Source of the DNA: Owenia fusiformis
Lineage: Eukaryota > Annelida > Polychaeta > Sabellida > Oweniidae
Length of the DNA: 64,000 bases
Assembly: GCA_903813345.2 (NCBI GenBank)
Contig: CAIIXF020000002.1
Coordinates: 16,064,467 to 16,128,466 of the forward strand
Direction: 5' to 3'
The notes beneath the pieces are model-generated. The model was not told where the DNA came from. It ran no database searches and saw only the letters and a list, made by a program, of their open reading frames with translations. Of this stretch, positions 17,101 to 53,934 are shown piece by piece. Position 1 is the first letter of the stretch. Every line of letters starts with the position of its first letter. The position numbers and the translations under genes are program-made.

Positions 17101-18556
17101 TTCTTGATCATACTTTATACGTGTAAAGAAATAGAATGTAAATCAATCATTGTTTTCAGCTTTGACCTACTTTTATGGTGAATGTCAAAGGACAAGATAC
17201 CAATTTGGAATCATCTTGAGCAATTTTACCTTATTTCAAGAAAATAATTTCGAAAACAGCTATGGTAGTCATACCATAACAGGTATATCAGTCTGTCAAT
17301 CTACATTCCCCATGCATCGTCTGATTCTTTAGTTTCCATTCATTGAAAATTGCATATACACCAGAGCTATCATCATGACAACTGATAGAATCAAGACTTT
17401 GGAAAAGACCTGAAAAGTGGGGATGGCATATTCACCTGAATACAACAGCTAACATAGGGATAGCCAGGTGGTGTGATTGGGGCACCCCCACCCCCCCCCC
17501 CCATTTAGCAATAAAAAATAGAACCATTACAGCAGGAGATCCAAGACGTCATTTCCATTGTTCTTTCGGCAGAAGAGCTTTAAAAATGCTTTTGACTTGA
17601 AGCTTCTAGCTCAATTTTGAAGGAATTTTTGTAAAGTTCAAGTCAAATTAAACTTTTTTGAGTTGCTTATGCGATATCGCACCCCCTCCCCCCTGATTGA
17701 AAGCTGGTTGCGCCCCTGATTAATAATTGCCATTATGACATCATAATATAACACAATCCAAATTAGATAATTTTCTATCGTTATTAGGTTATTTTCTGCC
17801 AGCCATCAAATTTTAAAAGGAATACATGTCAGTCAACTAGTCAAAATGTTTTCACAGCAGATAGTTTTGCAACATACTGTTACCATAGCAACAGCTTGAA
17901 TTGGATATTTTCATTACATTTTTTCAATTTTTATGACCATACATGTATGAATGAAATAAACTAATAAACTCATCGAAAAGAAATGAACTAATTAACTACT
18001 AAGGAGCATTACTGACCATTTTAAAGACAATAATTTCCCAGATTTATACATCATGATTAAAATAAAATATGCAAGAACAAACGGTTATGACGTCATAATT
18101 AATATGCATATCACCTTATTTGCATATTTTATAAACCATTTGATTGCTCTTTCCATGACCTTTCATTTGGTACAAATGTCACCTAAATCTGAGCAATATT
18201 GACGAAGATAGGGACCAAACACTGAAAAGAGCCTCTAAAAGTGGGTGTGGGATATTTACTTTGCTACCATAGCAACGCCATATCGGATTCAGAATTGCCA
18301 ACTTAATACTTCCTGATTGCATTAACCATTATCTTCCATTTGGTGTGAATTTCATCTCAATCTGAACAATAATGACAGAGATAGGGGCCATACACTGAAA
18401 AGAGCCCCTAAAAGTGGGCGTGGCATATTTACTTGGTTACCATAGCAACGCCGTCGCGGAATCAGAATTGCCAACATCATTTTTCTTGATCAGTATCATT
18501 TCTAGTTCATGAAAACATATGTCGCTTAGCTCGCCTGTAAAAAGGACACGGAACCT
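14130..18556. repeat. Long inverted repeat arms of the fold-back element
   Basis: The left arm (14130 to about 15700) is mirrored twice on the right: 15960-17110 and again 17150-18556. One 83-bp block (14213-14295) matches the reverse complement of 18398-18480 with one difference that I can find. Smaller ~180-bp direct units (GGCAATTCTG...GGCGTTGCTATGGTAAC) recur within each arm. Poly-C tracts occur at about 15178 and 17490. The transcript of either strand would fold into a kilobase-scale hairpin. Confidence 0.75.
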
Positions 18557-30157: not shown

Positions 30158-30377
30158 TCGTTTCCAGGAAGTTCATCCATTTTTTTATATTACATTGACG
30201 TTTCAGTATAACTTGTGGAATAGATCGATACAAACTCTCTCATTTCCATCAGCATGTAAAACAAAGAATCTCTGTAATAATCAAGATTCTCAGAGAGTTC
30301 GCAGTCAATGTGTATTTCTAAATACTGAATGAATATTATGGTGTTACTCTTTGTATTTTTTAAAGCTAAAATGAATT

Positions 30378-30908
30378 GAATAGATACCAGGTATATACCA
30401 AAGTAGGAAACTGAGTACTTCTAAACAATATATTGTAATTTGGATCTTACTTTTGGTCAAACGTTTGATGAATTGTGAATTAAATTATTCTGAGGCTATT
30501 AGGGATACAGTAGGAATTTCAAATACGGCCACTTTAATGAGTATTATTAATTAATGAATAGATACCAGGTATATACCAAAGTAGGAAACTGAGTACTTCT
30601 AAACAATATCATGTAATTTGGATCTTACTTTTGGTCAAACGTTTGATGAATTGTGAATTAAATTATTCTGAGGCTATTAGGGATACAGTAGGAATTTCAA
30701 ATACGGCCACTTTAATGAGTATTATTAATTAATGAATAGATACCAGGTATATACCAAAGTAGGAAACTGAGTACTTCTAAACAATATCATGTAATTTGGA
30801 TCTTACTTTTGGTCAAACGTTTGATGAATTGTGAATTAAATTATTCTGAGGCTATTAGGGATACAGTAGGAATTTCAAATACGGCCACTTTAATGAGTAT
30901 TATTAAAT
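30378..30908. repeat. 178-bp tandem repeat, three copies
   Basis: Copies begin GAATAGATACCAGGTATATA at 30378, 30556 and 30734, a period of exactly 178 bp. They look almost identical, and I noticed only isolated differences, so amplification is recent (or an assembly effect). No ORF is conserved between units beyond 60 codons. Confidence 0.9.
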
Positions 30909-33337: not shown

Positions 33338-33502
33338 CTATACCCTGATTATCCTTGTGACCTCTCTTGACATTGACATTGATCGTCCCCGCTGGCGGAT
33401 TGAGCTTGCGTTCCTCTCAGCCATATCGGCACGTGTTTCGGCTTCTTCCACCATGGCTTGTGCCTTGCGGTATTTGTTCAAAGTGATCGACACAACATCT
33501 TC
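33338..33502 (-). CDS. Prm: Paramyosin exon 12 (end of rod, tail, stop)
   Basis: 165 bp, residues 819-872 and [23 protein letters not shown] then [10 protein letters not shown] closes the rod; the non-helical tail is [26 protein letters not shown] acceptor. Sequence below 33338 to roughly 33020 is the likely start of the 3' UTR. Confidence 0.93.
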   Translation of the reverse strand, partial: EDVVSITLNKYRKAQAMVEEAETRADMAERNASSIRQRGRSMSMSREVTRIIRV

Positions 33503-36500
33503 CTAAATTGTAAGACACATGAAATAGTTTTTCATTTTGAATTTGATATGGTTGGCGGTTTGTATTTTAATCAGCCAAGAGATTTTAATCCCGATGGAGC
33601 TTTCAATATGGAACAGCGTTCTCCAATGCTTCAATTTACACGTTAAAGCTGATGAGGAATTACAAGACAAAGAATACTTACTGCTTCGTCGATCTGTCGT
33701 TTATATGACTTGATTTTAATTTGTAGAGTGCTGACAAGGTCTTGGAGTTCTTGGACTGTTCTACGGTCATCCTCAGCAGTGGTTCGGAATTCAACCAGCT
33801 GGCGTTCCAATTTACGGTTGGCAGCTGAGAATTCACGAGCCTTGCGTCCTTCAACCTCGAGTTCGGATTCGACATCACGGAGCTGCAAGAAGACACCAAG
33901 CAAACATGGTGAGAATAAGTGTGCATGTGCGGGGGGGGGGGTTAAATGCTCAAATGTAATAGTAAATGCTTTGTCTTCTATGACTTCAACATGTAATTTA
34001 ACGATTTCTGTATGAATGGAATGGCCCAAGGCCTTATGATTTTAGACTTAATGGTTCCTCAATGGTTGGGATAGACATTGTTCTTTTGAACGTTAGACCA
34101 TTGTATGGGATGTTGGATTTTGCTTCCTTATGACAGAGTTGTGCAATTGTTTCCTTTTCTGTATAGATCTTTTCCCCAGTTAGCACTTGTGGTTACACGT
34201 ACTTATGCATCAATATACAGTAGGCTTACTCTGAATTCACCTTACAAACAATTTTTCATGCGTCCATTACAATTAATATTACCAGACTTTGAACTTATTT
34301 AATGTAATTTTAAAAGTGTGGCCTTGATTCGTTTATACTATATACGAATATTCAAGTATGACTTACTCTGGCCTGCAATTTAGCGACGAGTCTCTTGCCT
34401 TCCCTTGTTGCGAATGCTTCGGCTTCTTCCAATTTCACAGTGATCTCACGGATTTCAATCTCGAGACTTTTGCGGAGAGATTCGGCGTTCTTGTAGTTGT
34501 TCTCGGCCTGGCTGAGTTCCTCTGACACACGATGGACTTCATTCTGCAGACGGTTAGCTCTGCAAAGAATGAATATATGTTTCATGGTTAATCGGAAACA
34601 CTAAGTGAACTAGATAAAGGCACGTTTGACGATATTAACATGTACAGACACTGTATACTTATCATGAAATAGTTTTTAGTACGCACCTATCCTCGGAGCC
34701 TCTGAAGTTGTTGATGGCGTCATCAAGATCAGCCTGCATTCCTTGGATATCAGCCTCCATTCTCCTCTTGTCGTTGGTCAATGATGTCACCTGGATGGTC
34801 AATTCACTTACGCGTTGGCTTGCGTCGGCAAGTTCATTTTCTGCGTTCTTGCGAGAACGCTCGGATGTCTCCAGGAGTGACCTAGTGTCCTCAATTTCAA
34901 CCTTCAGGGCGACTATCTTCCTCTCGGCCACTGACAGTGCAGCAGATGCTTGTTCGTATTGGGAGGTCCTGTCAGCAAGTTGGATCTCCAGTTCCTAAAA
35001 TGAATAGCGCTAATAGAGGTTGCCGCATGCGTATAGTAATGAATATGTGAAACACATGACAGTTGCCATATTCTTGAATGTAAAAATTGGACGACAAGCA
35101 TACAGACAGACATTACTGCTAAGGATAGAGATGACAGTATGAACAAAAGCAAAGAAATGGCTCTAAATTACTAGAAACTTGGAAAAGGATGCGCATGCTA
35201 GGACAACGTATTGACTATGCCCCCTCCCTATTCTTTGCTTCAATCAACATCCCTCCCCCAACTATCGCATCATGTTCGTCAATAATGTAGTCATCTACAC
35301 GATAGCTTGTTGGTTTTTAATCTCCAACTAACAAGCTACATACCAAGTAGTAATACATTACTATTGATGTAAAAATCCTAATTATTGCAAATGTTGAATG
35401 TGAAGTTGAGAAAGCGATGTTATTTGAAGTAGAGCTTAGTGGTGAATGTCTGAAAGAGCACAGTGCATCCGTTGATAAAACTATAAAGCTATACCCTTGG
35501 GTCCTCATATAGACATTTAAGAACTAAGGAACAAAGAGAAGATAGGATTCGGGGTACACGTAATGTTATTGTTCATAAATCACATGTTAATATTCTCTGA
35601 AGTGAGCAATTCATATCACGTTTCACACAGAAGAATCAAACTCAAAAAGAATACAGTTTTTATTAGATTGACTGTCATGCCAAAGAATAGAAGAATATAA
35701 GGATAGAGATAGAAACTGCACTATGCATGTGACAATCACAAAGGGACACACATATACAGTTGGTGACGTTGACATATGAGGACCCAAGGTAATGTTTGCA
35801 TGATGAGTCATAATGTTTCCATGTAGGGTCAGGTCAAGATAAACGAAACAATTCCGTGATATGTCATTGAGAATATCTGTAATAAACTATAAAGCAACAT
35901 GGTTAGTGCGTATTGTCTTCTAATTTCATAATGGCCGAATGATTGATGTCATTTCTGTTGCTTATTAGTAAATGTACAGTGCTGATGACATAAGCAGAAA
36001 GTAACGTGAAATCTTACACTGATCCTGACGTTAAGAACTTTGATATCTTTGACATATCCGGCGTTCTGTTTGACGACAATGTCCAACTGTGCCTCAAGTT
36101 CACGGATGTCTCCTTCCAGTTTCTTCTTGATTCTGATGATCTCAGATTTGTATTTAGATTCAATTTCAACAATGGTTCTGTTGAGTTCTTCGATGGTTCT
36201 TGCGGTATTTCGTCTGAAATCAAATAACACGCGACAATGAGTGCAAGTAAAACCGACAATGTCATCAATAGATTTCGCAAAAAGTTAATAGACAATTTCA
36301 CGTACATATTATAACACAAATTAAATGTTATTTATAGTATACCGGATGTTTTCAATTTCTTCATCCTTTTGGCGTAGTCTAGCTTCAAAGTCAGACTTGG
36401 CTTTTGCGAGTTCAGCTTGGGCAGCTTGAGCACGGAGGTCAGCATCTCTGGCAGCATCTTCAGCGTCGCGGAGCTGAGAGGTGAGGGATGCAACGTCGTT

Positions 36501-39500
36501 CTCAAGCTGTATTCTAAGAGCTGACAGATCATTGACTTGTCTGTTAAGATCCTTAATGTTGCTATTTGCCTCGCGAAGTTGGTCCGAAAGTCCTTTGTTT
36601 TCTCTGGCCAATGCGTCGTACTTGTCGCCAAGATCAGCTAGAGTTGCCTTAAGTTGAACAACGGTCTGTTGTAGGTTTTTGTTCTCGTTGAGGGCAGCGT
36701 TCAGCTCGCTCTGGAGGTCATCATTGCGTTTCTGGAGCTCAGCGTTGTTACGTTCAGCTGTCTTCAGTCTTCCTGCCAAATCTTGGACAGCGGCGTTGGC
36801 GCCGTCCAGTTCAACTGTTAGTTCTCTTACTTCGATGGACAGTTTGTTTTTGGTTTTCTCCAAGCTGCTGTTCTTGGTTCGAAGTGCGTCATTTTCGCTT
36901 TCTAGTTCGGTAATGCGGCTTGTCAAACGGCGTCTGAAAACATCAAGTTAAGATTTGTTATAATAAATTAAGGGTTAAGCTCTGAAGTCAGTGCATTATG
37001 GACTGATTATCATTCCTCCAAGGTGCTGTTTCATTACTCCTTACTTTCATTAGGTGTTTTTGCACGAGATTCGCAAAATCGAGTGCTAAGTTTAGGAAAC
37101 ATCGTCCGAGTTGACACATTGCGAAATATCCTGCTATACGAAATCACCAAAAAACACATTTCAATGAAACTTTCTGTAATGGTCAAGTTGGCATCAATTG
37201 TAATCTGTATGGTCAAGATATCACCTTGACAACCATTCAATGACCCTGGGTTTGTTGGGTTACTAGTATATATGCACGCAGTCAAATGAAACAGTGTGTT
37301 CGGATTGGATAGAATCGGACACACCTTGCCCAGCTATGTGTGAATGCATGGTAACGAATGGGAACAAGAATTGTCGCCTAGTATGCGAAGGCACAAAATT
37401 CCTACAAATCTTGACTAACCTTAATTCTTCAAACTCTTCGGTCTTGGCAAGTAAGTCTTTATCGTAACGAGATTTAAGACTTCCGAGGTCGCTCTGGAGC
37501 TTGCTGTTTTGTGCACGGAGTTGGGAGTTAGCCTCGCTCTCGTCTTCATATTTGCCAGCAAGGTTGTCGAAGTCGTTTTGAAGGCCGGCAAGCTGTATCT
37601 GGAGGTTGTTCCTTGTCCTCACTTCTTCATCCAGGGATCTCTTTGTGTCTTCCAGTTGGGAAGTCAGTGTGAGTTTCAGTTTGCTGAGTTGGGCAACGCT
37701 ACTGTCCAAGTCCTGAAGCTGCCTCTGGAGTTCGAAGTTCTCTTGGGTGAGGCGGGCTTTGGAGTTGCTCAGGTCGTTGTTTTGGCGGGTGAGGTCGTCA
37801 ACTTGGGCCTTCAGTCTTGCCAGCGCTGCCTCTAGGCCATCCAACTTGCTCTCCGCAGATTGCTATGACAGCAAAACAGATTTAATGAGGCACATAATGT
37901 ACTTAACACTGTCTTGTTTAAATACAGAACCGATCATATACATTAACTGTATTTTGTAAAGGATCAGAACGAATTTTCACAATATTCAAAGAAAATAAAC
38001 GAATAGAGCTGGTACCTTAGCTTTTAATGCGCCATCAAGTTGGGAGGAGAGGCCATCGATCTCCAACAGAAGTGAATGCTTTTCTTTCTCGGTCCTGTAA
38101 AAAGAATTATTTGTCTTACTCATCACCATTATTTAACTGAACTTGTCTAATATAAGTTTCAATCACTGGGTTTGCCAATTGATATCAGTCGAACATGTTA
38201 AAACAATAAACAGATTGTGGTCATGCGTTGCCCCATAAAATTAAAATATTTTGGTAAGTTATTAGAATTCAATCCGATCTACTTTATAGAACCCTGAGTC
38301 AAGAAATAAAAATATATACGGGGCTCTCTTTAGATACTGGAGACGTTCACTCTTCACAAAGGGACTTACTTAGAATGTTCATTAATTGTGAATTGATTTA
38401 AACCTGGTTCTTACCAACACTGGAGTTCAAATTAGATTTTGCATCATTCAAAATATGAATTAGGAATTCAAACATTTATGGATGTACATACTACTACGAC
38501 TACTACTACAACATGCAGGAATCAAAAGTGGCAAGCGTTGCAATCGCATTCATAATATCTTTCTGTTGGGCATTGGTCACTTTGGATGCTAGTAGAATCC
38601 TTCTGGCCAGCATGATAACTGTATGCAATTTTTGATAGGTGTTGGGCACTATAACTATTCTATTTACGATAACTATTGGACGCTATGTGCTATTTTTGAT
38701 AGCTAATGGACATTTATGCTAATTTTGATAGCTATTGGGCGCAATAGGCCTATACTATTTTTGATAGCTATTGGACGCTATATAGTATTTTCGATAGCAA
38801 TTGGTCGCTACTATTTATGTTAACTATTGGTCACTATATGAGATTTTTGATAGCTATTGGACGCTATATACTATCTGTTAGTTTGGGTGCTCTGTGCTAT
38901 TTTGGACGGTGATACTCTATAGGGGGACAGTTCTTAATATTTGTCTGAGACAGTTGTGGGTTAGTGTGGCCTCGTAGATCTCTGGAGAAAGCTAGCTTTT
39001 TGACAATTTAAGATCGTGATCCAAGACCACAACATCAGCACTTGCTACTAATAAGATACAGCACTACTAGATAGATAAATAGAATGATATTTCCTTTCTT
39101 ACTTGTTCTTTGACCTAGATGTATGTTCTAACTGATCATTTAAGTCAGCAACTGTGTCATTATAACGTTTACGGAGACTAGACTCTGTGGCCTCACTGTT
39201 GGCTTGTAATGCATCGTATTGTTTTTTCACTTTCTGAAGTTCTTGTTCTTTTTTTCTGTTATTCTCTGACTGAAAAACCAGGGCTTGTTAGTGAATGGCA
39301 CAACTGACAAACAACACAAGCACACTTTATGGACTGTTAGACGGGGGCACTGTGGGTATTACCCAAGTTGTGTGTCTTTGTTGGACGCCGTTTGAACATC
39401 CTGGTGTGGGCATTAGTACAAAACACACAATTATGAAATCATGGGATAATGTGAGTACGAGTGAAAACACTCAGTATAAGAAATATTTGTCTGTTATTCT

Positions 39501-42500
39501 GAAATACAAAATTATGTTAGTTTTAATAATCCAGTATTTAATAACACGATATAGTAGTTAACGGTGATGTTTGCAGGGTTACGTACGCTGAAAGAGTGTT
39601 TTTATATGAAAGATAAAACAAGACTTGAGAGATAAAATCAGACTTGAGCGATTTGACCTATACAGTATACTCATATTCGCACACTGTCTTGTACAACCTA
39701 TTATTAAACAGAGGTACATCATCATGCATGGGGTTTCTTTCAGGTCCAAGAATTATAACCAATAAAAACTTGACCAAAGTCAGATTTTATCTCTTAACAT
39801 TTTGCTGAACAACAAGCATATGGTGGGTAAAAACGTTCAGTAACACACAGCACACATTTTGTGTATTAACACCAACCGAACCAACATACTTGGATTTGCT
39901 TTTTGATATTAATTCTAGTTGGTCATTTAATTCGATGACAGCGTCATTGTGTCGTTTACGGAGTGAAGCTTCATTTTGTTCTGATTGGACACTGATAAGT
40001 TCATAGTCTTTTCTGATTTTAATAAGTTCGGCATCGCGTTTTCTGTTAACTTCAGCCTGCAATATATATACTAAATTATAAACACATAATCATAAATGAT
40101 TGGAAAGTATGCCCAGCAAAAAATCAAGACATATTTACTATTTAGTACATACTAGTATATTTCTCTCTATTTATGCATCCGCTCTGCTAGAGAAGTCAAT
40201 AAATTGAAACTGAAATGTATAAAAAATATTTGTGCATCAAAAATAAATTTCCTAATATTTATCTTAAATAGATGGCAACACCAGGCATCAGCTTTGTCAG
40301 TACCAGTGAGTGGTGTTCAGTATCATGAACGATGTGAGACTTCATTTCAACATCGGATATAGGATTCTGTTAGGCATCAACAGAGTGCTGTTTCTAGACT
40401 TGGAAAGCAGAAAGTTGATAAGCAAAAACAAGTCCGGTGATAACGCAATCTAAATATAACATAAACCACTTTTCCATCTTTGCAAAACAATTACAACATC
40501 TGACGTCATTACCCACATTCTTTGGTGTTTTTGTTTCCATAGTAACCACAAGAGGATTCTACCAGAAGGATTTGAGGGGTCATTTTGACATTTCAGTGAA
40601 ATTCGTTTACGCCTTTAACCAGTTATCATTTCACCAATATGGGGGTTGTATTAATTGCTGTTGTTGTAGCTGGTGATGATGAAGCCATATGATGCCACAG
40701 TCAAGTAGCTATATACACGGGGAAAGCAGACCCGATGATACCTTGAGCTTGCGCGGCGATCATGGCTGTGTCATGGGGCTTGGTGAGCTCAGTAGTATGT
40801 TCAGCTCGACGTGGATCCTAAAATGCTCACGGTATCATCGTGTCTACTTTACCCTATTACTATATATATCGTTTTCCAAAAATAATCCTCTCGGAAAGGT
40901 AATGACCCAATTGAAACTATCCATAGGGTTTGGTCTCGCATCTATATGAAATATATGCCTAATCATAGAAAATCATAAAATTATGAAATCATAAAATTTC
41001 AAATGTTAGTATCTGACATGTACTCATGTTGAAAATTAAACTTATCGTAAAATTGTGAATTATTGCGTCCCTTGTTTGAATTAAAGGAGTATGTTACAAC
41101 TTCCTGTGAGTAATTTGGTCAAACGACATGAAAATGAAAGGCAGGGAGAACGATTTGTTCTTGAAATGCACACGCTGTGTTTTCATTGAAATGCATATTC
41201 TAATTTTCTTGAAATTAACGCTCGATTTCAAGAAAATGATATTCCAATTTTTTCGGCTAAATAAAGTTCAGGCATTTATACTGTTGTTTAGATGGCCATC
41301 AACTTTGCTTCAATGATTCCAAAGAATTGCTAATAGGAAACATAACTCCGAAGAAATCATTATGGAAAACATCATCGCTGAGTTCGCTTTACAAATTACC
41401 ATAAAAGTGAATGTTATCAGTACAATTTTTGTTTGCAAATAAGTGGGCACTTAAACTATTTAGGTTTGCTCTATTTTTGTTATTTCGAAACCATCAGTAT
41501 CGGAGCAGTGACGGTTCAATGCCAAGACTGTTATCTGGAATATTTAGATTCATTTTATGTTAGTATACGGAAAGGACCTATAGATGCGTCCTCTTCGATT
41601 CTGCTGCGGTTCATTCCCATTCCGTGCTATAATATAATATAACATGATATGATTATAAATATAACATAATATTATATAATATAATGTAATGTAATAATAA
41701 AACACAATAAAATACGATTTTATAATATATTAGAACATTTTATGAATTATGTGATACTTTGATTTATGTTTTATATTATAAAACTAAGTGACTTCAATTT
41801 CTGTGGAAGTTCATTTTTCAAAACTATTTTTTGTGCGTCTAATGGGGACACTAACCTGTGCTGTTTGGAGACCATCGACCTCCTCGAGGCGAGACTCGAG
41901 TGTCTCCAAGTGGAAGGTGACTTCTGTGTAATTTTTCTCTGCCTGTAAAGGAAGAAATCCAGAAATGTTTATTGCGTGTGCTCATCCATATCCACGTTAA
42001 GAGCTATTAAAATAGGTATTGTCATTTTCACATGTGAATCTTAATTAATTAATGTGTCGTGTACTGTCAAGTAAAAACATAATTAATTGTGACCTACCCT
42101 GATACGTGCTTCTCTTTCAGCATCCAACGCATCTTCTAATTCACGGATTCTGGCCTAAAAGAAGAAAATGTGGAATTTAAATTCACAATATAAATATATT
42201 AATAATATATAATGTTTATTGGCCCATTGAAAACATACACACACATACTTTATAGTCAGCATAAGGTAAAGCAATGCTGTTTTAACACTACCACATTCAA
42301 ATACATAAGAGACGTATATGTATAAGGTACGGCACAGACGATATAAGTTACATCCAACGTACTGTATACGTGCATAAAAAAATCACATCAAAGTTTGGGA
42401 CTTTGGAGTTTGGGAAAACATATTATCTCATTTCAATTATGATTTCTAGCCAGAGCCAATTTGATTAGAACGCCTTAATTAACTTAGTATATACAGAATA

Positions 42501-45500
42501 TATTTCCCAGGTGCTGATTCTTACATTAGCAAAAATGTACTACAGAATCGAAAGACCCTTCACCATTTGTACCTTTACTTTAAATTCGTTTTAATCGCCT
42601 GCCCATGAAATCTTGATTTACAGATAAATGCAAAAATACATTTAAGATTGCTTAACTTCTACCTCTTGTTTTGAATGTTACAAAAGAACATATGGTTCGA
42701 AAATGAAAGGAAAGTCAGATGCCAATATCTGCCTCTCTGCTTGGAAGCTAAGGTTATCACTAGATAAGTTCACCTCACTTATCTTGCCATTTAGTCTACT
42801 TGTTAGATCCATGGTGTACTATAAGGCTCCATATTGGGCCTGCTTATATTTTAGGAGACTAATTAAAACCTGCCAGTTCTTATACCCTCTCACCTTGATG
42901 TATTATTGCGTGGATAGGATGTATTGGCTGTTCCCCTAAGAAGTGGTAAGGTATGCCTTAAACTGAGATGTACACCAGAGTAAAAATAGAACGAGTTGAA
43001 GCAATGTTTAACGTCTGGAAAGATAGGAGTGGGATAAGCCTAAAAGTTTACCACAGGTATTTGTATATGGCTGATTCACAGGCAGTGCTAGAGAAGTTCA
43101 TACATCCATGTCTAAATCAACGCTTTTTAACGCACTGTATAGATATATATAGAGGGTAATGCAGACACAACAAGAACGAAATACCATTCCACCTGGTAAA
43201 ACCTTTCGTGTAACATTGTTTGCATTTTTATTTTTGCAACATTCAGACAATGTTCCACTTGCTTCCCAGTGGCCCAAACGCATGCCACAAACCCAAAGCG
43301 AGTTCACATAATCTATATTTAATATTAGCTACAGATGAAAAGATCAAGAAGATGATACACATATAACCAGACCAAACACAAAATTTTATATTTTTTTCGA
43401 AAACATGCTGAAAATAGTACACTTCTAGCTTAGTACCCATCGGATAAATACAGAATAAAATGATTTTTCATTTCAGATATGTAGAAAATAGCTAGAATGA
43501 GGTACAAATATAAGAGATCTAAAACGATAGACCGTGTGACAAAATTTGATCAAGTTAGTGGTTTAATTAATGAATGGCATAATACCAAAAAATATTACCT
43601 TCTAGTAAATTATAAATTGTAATCAAGAAGGGGCTTAGTTCATTGGTATATCTTCATTTACCCTTTATTTATTACCAGTAAAGGTAATATACAAAAAACT
43701 CAGCATTGACCATTTTGATATTGTATAATGGAAATGGAATTGGATTCATAGATTCATTGGTGTTGTGTTTTTGATGTGTGGGTTTCATGCATCGCTCAAC
43801 ATTGCCAAGTAGCATGTTCAGCCTGTCCCGATTTTACAAACCGGCACTCGGTGTTTCTAATTTTGGAAACTACAAGATGCATATCATTATGCGTAATTAT
43901 ACTGATCTCGGCCTTGGTCCAGTCCTATAACATATAGATGTTCACATACCTTCATACCAATAACATAAATCAAGAGTTCAAATTTATCTAGTTCCTGGAA
44001 AGTATAATGTGAAGAATGCATGATGAAGGCCTAATACATGAAATCTTTCAATAAGCGATAGCTCCATATTACCGTGTCCTGGGGTAACCTTGGCCTCACA
44101 GACCCGGGCACCTGTATGTATTTTAGTCCACTTTACTCAGTAGACGATTCGCTTCTCCAAACTATACTAGAATAACGAATTTTGATAGACAGTTAAAGAT
44201 GAGATAAAGATGAGTTTAGGTTGTTTCTTCTAATGATGCATTTCGTCGTATTTCGTTAAATTGTGTCACTAGTAACTGTTGCTAAACATCTCGTTCTGAT
44301 CATTGGATTTAGATCAACAGAAAATGGTCATTATTCATTTTGCCTGTTTATTTGTATATGCACATTTTACTGATAAAGGTGAAATAATAGTAAGAACACT
44401 ATATGTGAAATGAAAATTCCCCCGACCCAGTTGGATGACCTCTCAAACAACAAAAGGACCATTTGATTATTGTTTTGAAATGTATAGCTCCAATTTGAGA
44501 CAAAATTAATGAGCGACAAATTAGACTTCACACCGACACCGACAAATCTGACAAGGTGATTCCTATGAAAACAAGGGCATGCCAACAGCTGATGACCTGG
44601 CATAAAAACAACAGTAATAAGCGTCCCATTAGTCCAAGAAGATTATCCCATTAGTACAAGAGGAACACCAAGTAGTCCAAAGACTGTCAGTTGAGGTCAG
44701 CTTTATAGCAACATTTCACGGCCAATGGGGGAAGGCTCGTCGGAATGAGCTATAGGGCTAGATATGGGTATCCCAGACCCCCACCCGAACATTTTTGGGA
44801 ACACTTTTTAAGAGGGCCACTTATTAAGCTTAAAAGAAAAACCCTCTCCTCTCATATCCGCAAGTAGGAAATATATCGCTGTGAAAGACATTCCAAAAGA
44901 AATACAGTATAACCATTTTCAGTGTTGTTTTCTTGATAAGAATGTTTCTTGAAATATGCACTTGACTCACGCCTTGTCTAAACACTGACACACGTCACTA
45001 TCAAATAAGCTGTTGCTTGCTCTGTGCGAGGCGCTGGTATCATGGTATGTGACATTGCCACCCAGTCGACACCTTCTAGTAACAATCAATGAAGAAATAT
45101 ATATACACAGGGGTCAAAAGAGGAAAGACCCGATGATATTACCACTGCAAGAAACGAAATATATAAGAGCACAATCAGTCATATGGAAAGCATATTCTAA
45201 ACAAATTAAAACAATTGTTTAAGACCCCCTCTCCGAACCTTGGCCGCCCTACCATCCAGGGCGTTTTCAGGAAGTAAATGTTGAAATAATCCAAATGTCG
45301 ATGTTTGGCAATCAACCATGTTATCATGACACGGTTTACATTGCTAATATCATCATCATATTTATTTATGATTTTTGCTTTATTAAGTTTAATCAATCAA
45401 AATAAACGACACAATCAAGTTGGTTGTAAATCACTGGGGAGTATCGTGATGCAACAACACCGTGTTGTTGCATCAAGATGGCCAGACTTCCGGTGATAGA

Positions 45501-48500
45501 TTTTCGTACGATATTTTGTGTCCCCAATTAAACCCATTTCTAGGACGAGTTGCTCAATAACCATACACGTACAGTTAGCGCACGATCTATATTTAAAGAA
45601 ACTGTCATTAGTATACATATACCATCACCAAGAAGCAATAAGTTCACGGTTTTAGTTCCTCACTATTGATGCAACAACACCAAACCGAAGATGCAACAAC
45701 ACTCCTCTAGATTTGAGCAATGATGCAGCAACACCAATTAATAGTATAATTTCAGAAGACCATCTCGAGAGGAACAGATTTTTAAATGCTACTATTGCAA
45801 TACCGTTACCAATTAGCCTACCCATATTTGCGTTCTTTTCAAGGCATTCAAAATACACGTCCTGCGGGCGAAGATCTTTATATGTATTTTCAAAAATTTA
45901 TACTTTTACATATTATAATGTACTGGACGTTATTCTATAACATAGTTCAATCGCCTTTAACATGGCAAGCTTTAGTAACCCAATCTATTTTCATAAACCA
46001 CTGTTCCATAGCTTGATGACCCTGACTCCAGTTAGTATCATTCAAAATGGTGGACAAATATCTTTCGTTCTCGGTAAACATGATGAGCTATTGAATATTA
46101 TCATGATATTATCTGTCATCCTTCTGTGGAACAGTGATAAACTAGTAGATGTACGTTACCACTGTTTATCAAATTATAACTAAAACAGTTTAACTGTGAC
46201 ATTCGTGAGCTTATGTTAATGGGATGATTGCTTCATCTATGATATAATATGACATGATTCTTTATTTCCTACAATTTGGAGAGCCAACGTGTAAAAACGT
46301 CTAATTTACTTTATTAGAGAGGCCGTTTAGTTACACGTTTAATAATATAATGGAAATCTTGCACGACGCACGTGTAGAATTATTGCTCTCTTTGGATTCC
46401 TTCTCTCCGACTGAGTAAAAAGGTAAACAAAAGTGATAAGATTTAGGGCCCAAAAAGGTAAATTGATAGGGGTACAGTTATTCCAGATATCCCGGGCCCT
46501 CGGGGTATCATATTGTCTCTCGAAATAAAACCAATATTGAATCCCTCTCAGTAAATAACTTTTATATAATAGCATTGTATAACTGCAATATATTAAACCA
46601 ACACTCATCCTATACAACTCTTGAGAACGATGTACAACTCCTGGATAGCGTAAACTCCTGAGCAGCGTATACAACTCTTCAACTTGATATATGACATCAT
46701 ACTTTGGGTGGGATAACAAAAGATATACAATATACAATTGTAGACCCCTCTTGAGGTCAACTTGCAAAATTGTATACCGATACTGTAAACCTTGAAAGTA
46801 CTGTTGATCAAGACCAGAGGTCGAGGACACTTTTGCCAGTTGACCGAAAAGAGAGGTTAACAATTGTTCTGTTAGTCCAAATACTATAATAATTGGACGA
46901 ATATATAATCGAATATCACGTGAACATATTTGATAAGTAAAGGTATCATATTTTAGCAAAAAATCCCCAAACCGTCGAATACTTGTAATTTTTTACACAA
47001 CTTATTTTTTCAAAATTAAAAAAATTTCAACATTAAAAAAACAATTTTTCAAAAATAGGGGTCAACAGTACCTAGTAGTGGTCAACAGTTTACAATTGTT
47101 GACCTCCCCAGAGGCCAACCGGCAAAATTGTATACCGAGACTGTAAACCGAAAAAATACTGTTGACAGAGACCGAAGGTCGAGGTCAACAGTAGTTTCAA
47201 GGTTTACAGTCGAGGTATATGATTTTGACGGTTGATCGAATGGAGAGGTCTACAATTGTTTTGTTAGTCCGAGTAAACTAATAATACACATAAAGACGAC
47301 GATCATCAATCGGCATGGCTTCATTTCACAACCTTTTCTCCGAACCACGTTAGCAATATTTTTTTTAGAAAATATGGAGACAGTGCAAGAAGCTTAACTC
47401 TGTATTTGGCACATCGTTAGTGAATTAATGTTAATTTTAAGTTTCTATTTGTATTTTTGCTATACTTGTCGCCTAGTATAAGTCATTTTCCTCAACATTT
47501 ACAAAATGTCCGTCTTCCATGTTTTTTTGTGACGTCATGAAACTTTTTTTCAGAAGTAGCGGTCAACAGTACCTAGTAGCGGTCAACAGTACATAATTTT
47601 GACCGCTAATCACCCAATCAGAATCGAGTATTTCAGTTGAGGTACTAACAATACATTTTGTTGCCCGCTCATCAACCAATCAGCATTGAGTATTTCAATT
47701 GAGGTACTAACAACACAAAATGACTGATATCTGTTGTCTTTCCAAAATTATATTAGTTATTTGTAAGCAATTTCCATACAGTAAATCAAGGGCATTTAAT
47801 TTAGAAAATGTATAATCTTTATTTTTCAGATACAATATCAATGAGATTGCCTCCCGGGGATTCTGTACTTTATTTAGTTTGCCTTGTATATCCTTTTAAC
47901 TTTGATATAGACAATGAAACCAAACAAAATACGTTTCGTTCATGGACCACTGACTCACGCGTTTTATTCATGTCCCGACCTACACCTGTAAACAGAACAT
48001 AAAACAGTTTCTCTTGTTGTTCAATGATACATTACATTGGCGTTTTTGCATCAGCACATTGGTGTTGTTGCATCATCGATAAGAAACAGAGTGGTGTTGT
48101 TGCATCAATAGTGAGGAATTAAAACCACGAATTTATCGCTTCTTGATGATGCTACGTGTATATCAATGACAGTTTTTTAAAATATAGATCATGTGCTAAC
48201 TGCATGTGTATGATTATTGAGCAACTCGTCCTAGAAATGGGTGTAAATTGGGAAAACAAAACATCGTACGAAAATCTATCACCGGAAGTCTGGCCATCTT
48301 GATGCAACAACACGGTGTTGTTGCATCACGATACCCCCCAGTGTAAATGAAATACATGAACTTTTACTATTGGTTCCTTTCCAAGAATGCAGTAACACCA
48401 TCATTAAACAAATTCCTTCCCATTTCCAGGACTATCACGGCACAGCGAATACATATATTCATCTTTACATGAACTTTGATAATCTTGTTTTTGACGAGTT

Positions 48501-51500
48501 AATTAATCATTAACCGACTGAAAGCCAGAGAACAGAGCCAGACACATTTACCTCAACAGACCCTGTAATACCGCATTACGTCAAAGGTGAAGGAAAAAAG
48601 ATGTCTAACAGTTCAAAATCGCATTTATTTACCAGTTCTTTCAGTTTATTTGCTAATGCATATTGCAATACGGAGTGTTCTAAAAGTAGCCTGCTGTAAC
48701 TTGAGACACGGATGCCTCTGAACCGCAGTTGCCTTATGTGGCAGGCCGGTCTTACAGCTGATAACTCCGTAGCTGTTTTCATTATTAGATTATATCCAGA
48801 AAAATAGAAACCTACTTGATGCTAGACGATTATTTAGACAATACAAGATATACTGGGACTCACTGTTCTTACTGGAAAACCCCATTTTCCTATATTTTTT
48901 ATAGAACCCACGACTAGTAAGTGCTTTTTATGGCAAGGGGGTTCTTCCGTCAGTAGATTAGTGGTTTAGCGGTTCCAGCTTTGGAAATCTTGGTTTCCGT
49001 TGCTATGGTTACACAGGTGAAGAGATTCATGATTCGAGTATATGATTCTTGAATGAACGAATGAACCGTCAATTGGTTGTAATCAGAATTATATGTTAGC
49101 TTTATAGAGCCAGTTGTGATAGCTGGTTTTGATGATTATCGGATGCTGGTTCAACCTCATGTTTGATTGTGTTCCCCAAATGTTGGCCTTTGCGTTTTCT
49201 GTGTAGGTTAACGCTTAGACACCTTTAAATGTTAAGTACTAACCTCGGTCTTAAATGTGATTATAAAATGAAGATAAAGCTCATCTGTTCTAGATCATGA
49301 TCTGTTCGTTTCGATATACATAGATTTTGATTGCCATTTGATATCATTTTAAGTTCTAAGATGGACGTTATGCGGGGCTATTGCTTGATATTTTCAGTTG
49401 GGCAAATGGTGACCAAATTAAAAAAACTTATTTTGAATATTCAATGAATTTTTGCCCATGTTACATGAGATTCATGTACTCTTACATAATATTCATGTAC
49501 TCACATGTACTCTTACATAATATTCACAACTTACACAAAGTAATTGTGGAAGAAGCCGGTGAAATGGAAATAAGGTCAAAGGAAAAGATCATGAAAATGA
49601 TATTGAAGACAAAATAATGACAATGAATGAAAATAATGAATCTGAACTTAAAACTGTTGATTAAAATAAAGCAAATGATGCTGAAGAGAAGAATAATGAA
49701 GCTGAAACTGATAAGACAACAACTGATTGGCGAAACGTAAACATCGATGGATTGGTGCTCATCGGAATTGACCCAAACAACAGGTTCATCAAAGCAGTTA
49801 TCCTTATGTTAACAATCTGTTTAGGACAACATTCCAAAAACTTAATCATCTGAGCTTGTACTGATCTGTCAGGAATCTTAACTTCGTATCAGAACATCAA
49901 CATAGTGGAAAGCTGACCTAAAAATATTTTCTATTCTGAGACCAGATCTTCTTCGTATAAACATCATTAGGAATTGCCCTGGTGGGTTGATAACTATACT
50001 TTATGAGTTTTCGAATTCTTAAATGTTGCCCTTTGTACACTATGCGATATCCATTATTGAAAATTAAAAGGAAGATGATGTTCGATGAATTAATTCCAAA
50101 TTGAAAACTTGACAGCATCGATTAGTAAGATCAGGTCAAGCAACCTCATTTGGCATTTAATCCCGTGACCACATAGATCAAAATAGTAAATGAACTTAAT
50201 TGGTATCAGTTACGAAAAATCGCACCAAACATATACACTTCATCTTTTGGTAACCCAACTTACCCTCATGGTTTACAAATGTGTTGATGCAAGTCTGAAT
50301 TTTATCCAAATTGAACCTGAGAAAAATGAACTATTTTCGAGGAAATGGATGATAAATGTCATGCAGTTTTGATGCATCTTGGATTTCAAAAGTATGCAGC
50401 ATATCATGATGAAAGTCAAACTCCAAAAGATTAGTTAGTATGGTTTCTGAAATTGAATTCTGCAACTAATAGATAGGCTTCTTCAAAAACCGAAAATATT
50501 ATGTCTCCAAAGTTTAATATTATAAACTTTTCCCATTGAAATAATATGGGATGAATTTGTGAACATGTACCAAGTCGACCAGTGGACCCACAATTTCCGT
50601 TTGGTCACTTGAGAAGTTTACATCAAGGTTTGTTTGTCTTTCTGAAGTGGAGAATAAATCTGGGTAAACGAGTGTTAAAAATGATATGTTTCGAAGATAC
50701 ATCCATCTAAACATATGTCGGACATTGCTGACTTTGATGTGTTTCTAAAAGTCGCCAAAGCGATTGGAAATGATGGGCAAAGAGAAAGCTATATTATCTA
50801 TCCAACAGAAATGTTTTCAAGTAGAAAATTTAAATTTAAATAATTGGACGTATTGGAAATAAAGTCAATTTCCATTTCAGCAAGTAGATTTTTGTCACCA
50901 TCAGAAGTGTTGACATATTGTTAACAATTCTTTGTGGACGGTGTCGGCGTCTGTAACAATACTAACAAATGTCTGGTGGTGGCATTTTCATGTTACTGCC
51001 CATGCCTTGTCCCTTTATATAGGCATATAGGTTAATCAGCTTTAAATAGTAACATAAACAGTCGTTTTGACACTCATTGCCATAGGGGAGTTTGGCTTGC
51101 CAAAACTTTGATGAGAGAGGAAATATGATTTTCCAATACATTCGATATATGTGAATTTTTACAAATGATTATACAAATACAACGTATTGAGGTCACCAGG
51201 GATTAGCCCTACTCTGTATAAGCCTCTTTAGTGCTCTAAACATTCCACAGTGGCTTTGAAAGACACGGTCAACACCGATTCAAAGTGTAAATACTTTATA
51301 ACAAAAAAGCATGCAACAAAATCTACAAATATCATTGTACCATTCAATGACAAAGTATGATCAAGTTTCAATATTTAACATCACCAACTTACAGTTCAAA
51401 CTCATTTACACAAAGTTTATTCAATGGTTTTGCTAAAGATAAAAGAGGTGTTTTTAGTCAAGTCAAACGAAAGTATTTGGTACTCAAAGGATGAGGGGAC

Positions 51501-53934
51501 ATTTTATTGATATTTTATGGTCACTCTTTTTGAACTTAATGCGAATGTTTCGGATAAAATATTTCACGATATATTCACCCCTATCTATTTTATAGTTTAG
51601 TTGCTAGTGTATGGGCAATGGTCCCCTTTTCAAATATGAATCCTTTGATAAGCAATGTCAGTTTTACTATACAATGGAACGCAACACAATTACAATGAAA
51701 AAGTACCTGCGTCGGCAAATTTCTCCTGAATGAGAAACTGCACGATTGCACTTTTCATAACCAATTCATTCCAATAACCTGAGTCCTCGACACCACCATG
51801 AGATGGATCTAAGATGTACCGGTTTCTTGTATGAAAATCCTATCAGTTGAGTACATATTTTTCAAACAGGAAAAAGTGTAGAACAAAAATAGGCTTGCTC
51901 TAGCCCCTCTCAGCGCCCAGCCCCCACCCTTTGCTGGTATGCACATCTACATAATAGGGAAACATTTAGAGTGGAGGGTGTCAGCGAGAAAAAATCATTT
52001 TCATTGACGTATCATTATTTCAAATTATACAAGTGATATATCAGAAATAGTTTCTTTTACCATCACCAGCATAAGATGGTCTATGTCTAATAAGTATTTA
52101 ATACTAGTATGACCTGATTTTAGTAACCCTGACTGGGAGTGAACAACTGTAACAACCCTAGATATTTGTTTTCTTTTCATGTAGAGTTGCCATACTTGGA
52201 TTATAATAGGTGGAAGGGATTGTTGGCCAACCATACAGCCGTGAAATGGCTGATCAGTATAGTGTCTAATGAGGCTCTACTGATAAAAGTTTCACTTGTG
52301 AATAACAAGACAACAATCTCCAAATTCCATCTCGAAATAATCCTCTTAAATATGATCGCTTGTGGTCTGGGGGATTTGGTCACGTTTCCATTTTTGACTT
52401 TGCGTACTCTGCAGCTTATGAGTTGAAGTATCGGATTTTCGAGATTACCAGCTACAATCGTGGATTAGGATAAAAGCAGATCAATTTCAAATTAGGAGGC
52501 TTTACCTGTAACTCGAAATGTGCATATTTAAGTAGGAGTTTTCACCAGTCGTGTACGACTGTAACACATTCAATACAACCGTCCCAATAACCATTATGTC
52601 AATAACTCATATTTACCACAGGCAAACCTTTCAAAATGGGATTAACAATATTTTTATTTGGGACTATGTGAACCTAGCAAACGTTGGGTTATTCATAAGG
52701 TACACTCTCAACAAGAGAAAATGAATTAAATCTCGAAGAGTTAAAGTGGCTGGCGATAAAAACATAGTTCAGGAATGCCGACCATTGTATATTATAGGAA
52801 TTTATTGTGACTCTTTCCATCAGCTTAACTATTAAGGTCAAATGTCATACATTGTCATTGAACTGAATAATGGCTCTAATAAGAATTGCAATATCAAATT
52901 GCATACCAGTGAACATGACTTATGATTTAAAAATCAAATTGTTCGTGAACCATTTCGCGTTTTTTAATTGTCCGGACAACAAAAGTATTGATTTGTATAA
53001 TGTTAACCTACAACCAATACCCAAAAGTGCACTAAAGTATAAACATGATGATCAAATATATGTAAACAACCCAAATATAGTCCCGAAATTGGCCCGACCA
53101 CGCCCACTAATTCCCAACATTACACACAGACATCAGCAAGATTTAAAGTCCATTATCTGTCTCAGAAAAGGAAGGAATAAATGATTTATTTATTGTTTCA
53201 ATTCCTCAGCATAGCTTAATGATGAGACTGAGATTATTTGGCATTTCCACTACCAGCAGTAGATTCTGTAAATATCTTACTTGTGATCAAGTTACGAAAT
53301 ATATTTTTAGATCCACTCTTAATCGCGTACGATATAACACCGGCACAATCAACTGAACACTTGAAGTATAAATTATTATGTTTATGAAATATAATTTATT
53401 TATCCGTTTATTTCATGTTGCTTGGCATGGTTGTTGTTTAAAATGTTCATGATTTATGCATTTGGTTGATCGAGTTTGATTGTTATACTGGGGTTTGCTT
53501 GTACTAGAGTACATGGGAATTGCATGCTTGGCAAACATTCAACGTTCAACTAAATGTATGTGAACAGCCAAAAATCTACTTTAAAACTTTGGTCCAAAAA
53601 ACTCTTATACATATACGTCCCGAAGCAATGTATTTAATCAACAGCAAAAATCTTTATATTGCATTATATAAAGGATATATCTCAGTAAATAAAATCAGAT
53701 ACTTGACTAAACATAATCAGAAACCCTTAATCTATTCAATTAAAAACTAATATAAAATTTATATATGAACTCATAGCACTTGTTTTCATCATTCCTACTC
53801 ACCTGAAGACGGGTCTCCGAGGTAGGTGACATGCCTCGGTAGACATTGTAGCGGTTGACAGATTTTGTGCTACTGGTTCCATCATCCGAGCTGATGATCG
53901 TAGTCCTCTCGATCCTGGAACTTGAGCTACTCAT
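33338..53934 (-). CDS. Prm: Paramyosin
   Basis: Complete gene, 12 coding positions, 2,619 nt, 872 residues, matching the usual 860-880 of invertebrate paramyosins. Exons (5' to 3'): 53803-53934, 42098-42154, 41856-41942, 39890-40056 or 39103-39269, 38016-38094, 37420-37862, 36343-36933, 36018-36213, 34687-34994, 34367-34559, 33682-33882, 33338-33502. All junctions are GT-AG and in phase. A Ser-rich head with YRGMSPT is followed by an unbroken coiled-coil rod with motifs such as [58 protein letters not shown] and KYRKAQ..VEEAE.RADMAER, then a short Ser/Arg tail (RSMSMSRE). Family role: forms the core of muscle thick filaments under the myosin layer; head and tail are phosphorylation targets. 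One position has two alternative exons. Confidence 0.95.
33682..33882 (-). CDS. Prm: Paramyosin exon 11
   Basis: 201 bp, residues 752-818, [19 protein letters not shown] to [19 protein letters not shown] acceptor, GCA/GTAAGT donor, phase 0 both sides. Confidence 0.94.
34367..34559 (-). CDS. Prm: Paramyosin exon 10
   Basis: 193 bp, residues 687-751, with [20 protein letters not shown], one of the best-conserved stretches of the family. TTTGCAG acceptor, AGA/GTAAGT donor. Confidence 0.94.
34687..34994 (-). CDS. Prm: Paramyosin exon 9
   Basis: 308 bp, residues 585-687, [20 protein letters not shown] to NNFRGSEDR. Contains [26 protein letters not shown] acceptor; AG/GTGCGT donor. Confidence 0.94.
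36018..36213 (-). CDS. Prm: Paramyosin exon 8
   Basis: 196 bp, residues 519-584, [20 protein letters not shown] to [11 protein letters not shown]. The TARTIEEL motif is strongly shared among paramyosins. Donor AGT/GTAAGA. Confidence 0.93.
36343..36933 (-). CDS. Prm: Paramyosin exon 7
   Basis: 591 bp, residues 322-519, the largest exon, from [19 protein letters not shown] to [21 protein letters not shown] acceptor, CCG/GTATAC donor. Confidence 0.95.
37420..37862 (-). CDS. Prm: Paramyosin exon 6
   Basis: 443 bp, residues 175-322, from [18 protein letters not shown] to [18 protein letters not shown] acceptor, TTAAG/GTTAGT donor (phase 2). Unbroken heptads. Confidence 0.94.
38016..38094 (-). 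CDS. Prm: Paramyosin exon 5
   Basis: 79 bp, residues 148-174, [20 protein letters not shown] and GALKAK. TTTTTACAG acceptor, AAG/GTACCA donor. Confidence 0.92.
38630..38900. repeat. Short minisatellite in a paramyosin intron
   Basis: About eight degenerate units of TTTTGATAGCTATTGGACGC TATATACTA, 30-38 bp each, in the intron between exons 5 and 4b. Confidence 0.75.
39103..39269 (-). CDS. Prm: Paramyosin alternative exon 4b
   Basis: 167 bp, begins [20 protein letters not shown], contains [19 protein letters not shown] and ends SRSKNK. Acceptor TTTTTCAG, donor ACAA/GTAAGA. About 30 of 56 residues match exon 4a by my count. 167 is not a multiple of 3, so 4a plus 4b in one mRNA would break the frame; either alone joins exon 5 as AA/G (Lys). 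Confidence 0.86.
39890..40056 (-). CDS. Prm: Paramyosin alternative exon 4a
   Basis: 167 bp, begins [20 protein letters not shown], contains [19 protein letters not shown] and ends SKSKSK across the splice. Acceptor ATTGCAG, donor CCAA/GTATGT. It fills residues 93-148. The partner exon 4b lies 620 bp downstream with the same length, phase and heptad register. Confidence 0.88.
41856..41942 (-). CDS. Prm: Paramyosin exon 3
   Basis: 87 bp, residues 64-92, [20 protein letters not shown] and [16 protein letters not shown] acceptor, CAG/GTTAGT donor, phase 0. Confidence 0.92.
42098..42154 (-). CDS. Prm: Paramyosin exon 2 (start of rod)
   Basis: 57 bp, residues 45-63, [25 protein letters not shown] acceptor, AGG/GTAGGT donor. 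Phase 0 on both sides; too short for ORF scans. Confidence 0.92.
42155..45423. other. Prm: Paramyosin intron 1, distal part
   Basis: No further exon, alternative promoter or coding frame recognised. Scattered AT-rich runs. An internal promoter as used for Drosophila miniparamyosin was looked for and not found. Confidence 0.5.
45424..48355. mobile_element. 2.9-kb DNA element with ~300-bp inverted ends
   Basis: Ends: GTAAATCACTGGGGAGTATCG at the left, and its near reverse complement CGATACCCCCCAGTGTAAAT at the right. The inverted homology runs about 300 bp (45424-45735 and 48035-48355). Each end carries a 27-bp palindrome made of GATGCAACAACAC facing GTGTTGTTGCATC, plus two to three more GATGCAACAACACC copies further in. 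Interior: two diverged ~400-bp blocks of GGTCAACAGT / CAAAATTGTATACCGA type repeat and one 206-codon open frame of unknown meaning. Superfamily not identified. Confidence 0.65.
46339..46959 (-). CDS. Hypothetical 206-codon open frame inside the 2.9-kb element
   Basis: Open for 206 codons in AT-rich DNA but starts with TTG, is rich in Leu, Tyr and Arg, and overlaps the repeat-rich interior. No domain, no transposase motif and no splice context recognised. The lack of stops may simply reflect internal repetition. Listed because it is the longest unexplained frame in the gene deserts. Confidence 0.15.
   Translation of the reverse strand: MLKYDTFTYQICSRDIRLYIRPIIIVFGLTEQLLTSLFGQLAKVSSTSGLDQQYFQGLQYRYTILQVDLKRGLQLYIVYLLLSHPKYDVIYQVEELYTLLRSLRYPGVVHRSQELYRMSVGLIYCSYTMLLYKSYLLRGIQYWFYFERQYDTPRARDIWNNCTPINLPFWALNLITFVYLFTQSERRNPKRAIILHVRRARFPLYY
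48356..53802. other. Prm: Paramyosin intron 1, proximal part
   Basis: No gene seen. Contains a diverged copy of the 'GTTGACATATTG...TTTGTGGACGGTGTC' dispersed repeat at about 50900. The open frames (up to 104 codons at 52870-53184) match no family I know. Confidence 0.5.
53803..53934 (-). CDS. Prm: Paramyosin exon 1 (head)
   Basis: Residues 1-44: [20 protein letters not shown] then a Ser/Thr stretch and [13 protein letters not shown]. The ATG is the first in the inferred transcript and the YRG-SP-T head is shared with other paramyosins. Donor CAG/GTGAGT. Followed by an 11.6-kb intron. Confidence 0.93.

Follow-up and report, generated by a model that had tools for sequence, protein, structure and literature searches.

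A window of 64,000 nucleotides from the annelid Owenia fusiformis was analysed in silico (positions below refer to this whole stretch). Its minus strand carries a gene (53934-33338) with 12 coding exons for a protein of 872 residues, which we assign to paramyosin, a protein with which invertebrates pack the thick filaments of their muscles. Exon 4 of this gene is present as two tandem copies, 4a and 4b. Very probably these represent a tandem-duplicated, mutually exclusive pair by which the gene would give rise to two full-length paramyosins.

The paramyosin gene and its duplicated exon 4

The rod of the predicted protein matches the Pfam family Myosin_tail_1. Its best match in the PDB is 3jbh from striated muscle (E 1.6e-142; muscle myosin tails), and no paramyosin chain is among the 22 PDB sequences matched by the rod. 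The alignment to myosin tails extends from residue 45 to ~864 and, as far as displayed, is almost without gaps. The preceding head comprises 44 residues, and its ATG has an in-frame stop 8 codons before it. With the Drosophila myosin rod the identity is 40% over 397 columns, whereas fly and spider myosins are far closer to each other (44/47 residues in the slots of exons 2-3, 44/56 in the slot of exon 4). Hence the protein is distinct from muscle myosin heavy chain. Moreover, no motor-domain exons were seen upstream of the head in the list of open reading frames (ORFs), which was inspected by eye with no profile search. A myosin-tail-like rod, no motor domain, and a short non-helical head and tail (Ser-rich and Ser/Arg-rich, respectively) support the identification as paramyosin made in an earlier note on this DNA, as does the distance from myosin heavy chain.

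Both exons 4a and 4b have a length of 167 base pairs (bp), are flanked by AG upstream and GT downstream, and share the same phase. They are separated by 620 bp. Since the end of exon 3 is in phase 0 and the last two bases of exon 4 open a codon that exon 5 completes, either copy fits the slot. With one copy alone no stop interrupts the frame before the end of the protein. In contrast, translation stops at codon 162 in the join 3-4a-4b-5 and at codon 112 in the join 3-5, which skips both copies, so single inclusion is the only form keeping the frame. The encoded segments are identical at 29 of 55 residues (53%), or at 30/56 if the shared split codon is counted, and the DNA is identical at 94 of 167 bases (56%). 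The earlier note had described two open 167-bp exons with good splice sites in one slot and phase, about 54% identical in protein, whose joining would break the frame; coordinates, splice dinucleotides, frames and measured identity agree with this description.

Every exon was searched against the 64-kb window using tblastn (E up to 0.5). Exon 4a finds 4b with E = 2e-16 and 53% identity over all 55 residues, ungapped. Other matches between exons are weaker: those of at least 38 residues are 19-32% identical, while those reaching up to 53% cover just 15-23 residues. Chance likeness of 4a and 4b is therefore excluded. Neither a third copy of exon 4 nor a second copy of any other exon, including exon 5, was found in the window by this search.

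The divergence of the two copies was evaluated according to Nei-Gojobori (NG86). The synonymous distance (dS) of 2.4 is saturated, the nonsynonymous distance (dN) is 0.52. Flanks just outside the exons are 26-40% alike (ungapped, 30 to 100 bases). Judged by low identity, saturated silent sites and unlike flanks, the duplication is an old one. The window is rich in repeats and a single assembly was examined, which might favour an artefact in which two haplotypes or gene copies were joined. However, alleles would not diverge nearly as far as 56% DNA identity and unlike flanks, and the search found no further doubled exon, making such an artefact scarcely credible.

The ratio of nonsynonymous to synonymous differences per site (pN/pS) is 0.52 in frame, with a bootstrap range of 0.33-0.79 (2000 resamplings); the two remaining frames give 1.17 and 0.93. 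We also simulated neutral evolution of one unconstrained copy by substitutions only, using intron base composition and 5000 runs per distance. At 0.6 substitutions per site an open frame together with both splice dinucleotides was kept in 0.3% of the runs, and at least 29 identities remained in 3/5000, whichever copy was taken as the start. None of 5000 runs kept 29 identities at 1.0, 1.2 or 2.4 substitutions per site. Open frame and identity would accordingly be lost before the distance between 4a and 4b is reached if constraint were lacking. As a pair, the two exons are thus shown from sequence to have been under protein-level constraint over a long time.

The features of the gene are compiled in the table. 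The intron between 4b and exon 5 additionally contains a degenerate AT-rich minisatellite with palindromic ATAGCTAT cores (38622-38874).

Table. Exons and selected introns of the paramyosin gene, in order of transcription except for intron 1 (last line).
Feature	Position	Strand	Remarks
Exon 1, coding part	53803..53934	-	start codon and 44-residue Ser-rich head; donor CAG/GTGAGT
Exon 2	42098..42154	-	residues 45-63
Exon 3	41856..41942	-	residues 64-92; phase 0 at its end
Exon 4a, predicted alternative	40056-39890	-	167 bp, residues 93-148
Intron between 4a and 4b	39270..39889	-	620 bp; ACTAAY motifs at 39521, 39417, 39292
Exon 4b, predicted alternative	39269-39103	-	167 bp, slot of residues 93-148
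Exon 5	38016..38094	-	79 bp; residues 149-174; completes split codon begun in exon 4
Exon 6	37420..37862	-	
Exon 7	36343..36933	-	
Exon 8	36018..36213	-	
Exon 9	34687..34994	-	
Exon 10	34367..34559	-	
Exon 11	33682..33882	-	
Exon 12	33338..33502	-	rod end, short Ser/Arg-rich tail, stop codon
Intron 1	42155-53802	-	11.6 kb; other introns of the gene far shorter

Myosin slot, heptad register and charge of exon 4

Searched alone, 4a aligns best to Drosophila myosin 1161-1220 (43 bits) and 4b to human myosin-7 1162-1221 (31 bits), the next best place of 4b in myosin-7 scoring 1.9 bits. Each copy picks the same 60-residue stretch of the myosin heavy chain. In this slot the identity to Drosophila myosin is 27/56 for 4a and 19/56 for 4b. 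Of the 42 columns in which three myosins are invariant, 10 show a state common to 4a and 4b but unlike myosin, which fits a duplication inside the paramyosin lineage.

Drosophila and Lethocerus myosin are identical at 46/47 positions in the slots of exons 2-3 and at 50/56 in the slot of exon 4, but share just 8/26 residues in the slot of exon 5. The most divergent 26-residue segment between them comprises residues 147-172 (19/26 differing). In myosin heavy chain genes the S2 hinge is encoded by cluster 11 of the mutually exclusive exons (MXE), in Drosophila by the 26-residue exon 15 of Mhc. Of the eleven MXE clusters described, it is the sole one in the rod (PMC5660136; PMC3912159). The divergence of the two insect myosins at the exon 5 slot fits this known swap. 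We infer that paramyosin exon 5 occupies the slot of the hinge exon and that the hinge exons of the two insect sequences are not the same one. The doubled exon 4 would then lie one exon upstream of the hinge slot; exon 5 itself was found once.

The hydrophobic register was scanned in 42-residue windows for both isoforms. Both exhibit a one-residue shift between windows 106-147 and 120-161. Further changes, passing through unclear registers, are seen at windows starting 281-309 (net one), 484-533 (net two) and 729 (net one); presumably the other skip residues of myosin lie near these. A scan for a single break at positions 100-139 gives the top score at 125-127 for 4a and 4b as well as for Drosophila myosin, a break at 128-131 in 4a scoring just 0.1 below the best. 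The residue aligned with myosin-7 T1188, which we take to be skip residue 1, is residue 120 (Asn in 4a, Thr in 4b). Because the best break and the T1188-aligned residue disagree, an assignment of skip 1 to one residue was dropped and the shift is claimed just to within exon 4. Its place there is seemingly that of the first skip residue of myosin. The myosin skip 1 region is described as ~30 residues of parallel helices in the thick filaments of Lethocerus (PMC9820631), and in Lethocerus and Drosophila this parallel stretch is reported to be bounded by bends (PMC10573858). By analogy, the skip 1 region of paramyosin may behave like that of myosin.

The charge pattern of the rod is usually linked to rod packing. 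Although 26 residues differ between 4a and 4b, their charge class is the same at 55/56 positions, the exception being D109 to Q. Permutation over the 26 differing residues gave a mean of 15.4 charge agreements and never reached 25 in 20000 trials. For this comparison the register break was set at 120; the charge result is independent of the break. The charge class agrees with Drosophila myosin at 54/56 positions in 4a and 53/56 in 4b. High charge agreement with myosin is not unique to the exon 4 slot, since the 241 paramyosin-myosin windows wholly downstream of it reach up to 53 (mean 47.8/56 at a mean identity of 21/56), and those with 29-31 identities show 49-53 agreements (every-14th windows displayed).

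With the break at 124-127, the core changes between 4a and 4b are R/K, I/V, I/L, N/T, H/Y and I/T. Outside the core, 4a has, by eye, aliphatic residues at 95, 104, 112, 115, 133 and 141, where 4b has N, Q, A, A, A and H. In this register no aliphatic residue larger than alanine is left outside the core of 4b. Charge-based packing is probably preserved, whereas uncharged side chains vary between the versions. The proposal of the earlier note that the pair tunes thick-filament packing has to be narrowed in this respect: with the charge pattern retained, mainly uncharged outer residues and conservative core changes are left to act.

These comparisons bear on two other explanations. Both the 4a+4b form and the skip form reach stops, as would suit a second copy serving mainly as a poison exon, double inclusion lowering the paramyosin level by early stops. 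Yet a poison exon would not need to keep 29/55 residues, 54/55 charge classes and the myosin slot, and we regard this function as very unlikely. Alternatively, one copy could be a recently retired exon, once alternative and now skipped, with little time to decay. This would be consistent with 4b being further from Drosophila myosin than 4a (19 vs 27 of 56), and the selection estimate averages over the whole history of the pair. On the other hand, both copies are stop-free and frame-true with usable splice sites, and even 4b retains the charge class of Drosophila myosin at 53/56 positions. Retirement of one copy is hence unlikely.

Putative choice between 4a and 4b and comparison with known systems

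The acceptor tracts of 4a and 4b are among the weakest of the gene. Within the 17 positions before the acceptor, 9 and 10 pyrimidines are found for 4a and 4b, 10 for exon 5 and 11-15 for the others, 4a being the lowest. The donors of both copies match the consensus at 7/9 positions each (other donors 5 to 9). The motif ACTAAY, which is of the QKI/STAR type, occurs 3 times in the 620-bp intron vs 0.47 expected, a number reached by 1/200 shuffles and weak after 12 motif-by-intron tests. None of the other splicing-factor motifs stood out in these tests. The ACTAAY at 39292 possibly represents the branch point of 4b.

Based on a mutually exclusive pair, each mRNA would include either 4a or 4b, leading to two 872-residue proteins that differ in residues 93-147 only. 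Cells may choose by muscle type or stage via regulated use of the two weak acceptors, and products of double inclusion or skipping would be cleared by nonsense-mediated decay. The swap would exchange a rod cassette around the first skip residue such that length, heptad register and charge pattern are held. Uncharged side chains would be altered, with six outer aliphatics in 4a and none at those places in 4b. The two versions could thereby contact their neighbours in the filament core differently, the stacking stagger remaining unchanged.

Several points weigh against this picture. The use of either exon is a prediction from genome sequence. No relative turned up in the viral contigs of IMG/VR or the prokaryotic contigs of GTDB. 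Purifying selection was measured on the pair as a whole and is compatible with one copy having recently fallen out of use. Moreover, 6/15 core and 20/41 other positions differ between 4a and 4b (break at 124-127), so conservation of the core does not clearly exceed that of the surface. Long-range RNA pairing that might enforce the choice showed no excess over shuffles by either of two tests. The best ungapped helices were equalled or beaten by 15, 25 and 10 of 60 shuffles. Duplex energies were reached by 12, 7 and 4 of 12 shuffles, but the duplexes predicted extended over most of the introns, making this test insensitive. Steric exclusion is unlikely owing to the 620-bp spacing between the copies. 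Frame breakage with decay of the wrong products is the sole exclusion device visible, any other being conjectural. Competing RNA structures were thus not retained as exclusion device; weak conserved pairings could escape a test on a single genome. Taken together, anatomy, selection and slot homology strongly support the mutually exclusive use suggested in the earlier note, while for the individual mRNA the choice is one that we infer.

The pair resembles cluster 11 of the myosin heavy chain in that tandem homologous exons would be swapped in a homologous coiled-coil rod with the register kept. In contrast to cluster 11, the putative swap occurs in paramyosin, lies one exon further upstream, outside the hinge slot, and concerns a larger unit (56 residues). 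As in Drosophila with paramyosin and miniparamyosin, two protein forms would originate from one paramyosin gene (PMC11509062; PMC7349286). The Drosophila forms are described as independently transcribed and of unequal size, whereas those predicted here would be equally long and distinguished by an internal segment. In analogy to the fly, where the forms are attributed to independent transcription starts (PMC11509062; PMC7349286; PMC4778870), 4b might be an early exon of a short paramyosin driven by an internal promoter. However, the acceptor at the start of 4b has the phase of exon 3, the alignment with 4a runs from end to end, and a short form has no need of an exon 4 copy. We consider an internal promoter extremely unlikely.

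Tandem duplicated exons of which one is chosen per mRNA occur in tropomyosin, troponin and Dscam. Unlike those, the present pair belongs to a different gene and has just two copies, and competing RNA structure was not detected here. In tarantula tropomyosin, the region of fly exon 7a/7b has been described (PMC2674065). Expressed sequence tags of the same animal reveal two or more paramyosin isoforms, with identities of 71% in the N-terminal and 76% in the C-terminal region (PMC2674065); in our reading these are two genes and not an exon swap, a point on which the passage is silent. For Schistosoma japonicum, paramyosin appears in a polymerase chain reaction table of splicing variants, the section concerned leaving the type of variant unstated (PMC4583307). 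For scallop, alternative splicing was suggested for a unique paramyosin sequence in a passage that names no exon (PMC8945602). Otherwise, the paramyosin forms found described in the sections consulted derive from independent transcription starts or phosphorylation. Among the matches listed from open-access full texts we recognised no earlier report of a swapped paramyosin exon pair, so that the claim of the earlier note that none had been described survived this search; genome annotations may already hold such isoforms.

Paramyosin is held to set the length and diameter of thick filaments and to take part in catch. What surprises about the 4a/4b pair is that it sits on skip 1 while charge stays constant. 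We tentatively propose a swappable skip 1 cassette, i.e. a 56-residue unit of fixed charge and register in which contacts to neighbours vary and which arose separately from the myosin hinge swap. If true, nature would provide two rods distinguished by the surroundings of skip 1 alone, with which the part played by skip residues and outer side chains in filament assembly could readily be tested. Homologous myosin and paramyosin rods would then each have gained an exon swap at neighbouring places, and muscles could vary paramyosin contacts in the filament core with the stagger undisturbed.

Other features of the window

The window has a GC content of 35%. A remnant of a Mariner-type transposase is located at 62455-63720 (-). 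It consists of two ORFs, the first matching the Pfam families HTH_48 and Transposase_1, the second matching DDE_3 below the cut-off. Several long ORFs at 7562-12189 (+) are Ser/Asn/Gln-rich and include one coiled-coil-like piece. They may belong to a regulatory protein as exons; Pfam searches with three of these ORFs gave no family above the cut-off.

A related repeat of ~41 bp, also in multiples of this length, forms arrays at 330-821, 1126-1325 and 3712-4609, and a separate 41-bp array with 90% match is found at 5487-6028. About two copies each of a 173-bp unit are located at 14198-14556, 16760-17090 and 18153-18475, by eye a single repeat in both orientations. Three head-to-tail copies of 178 bp are present at 30377-30906. 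Given their match of 99%, these copies are probably recent.

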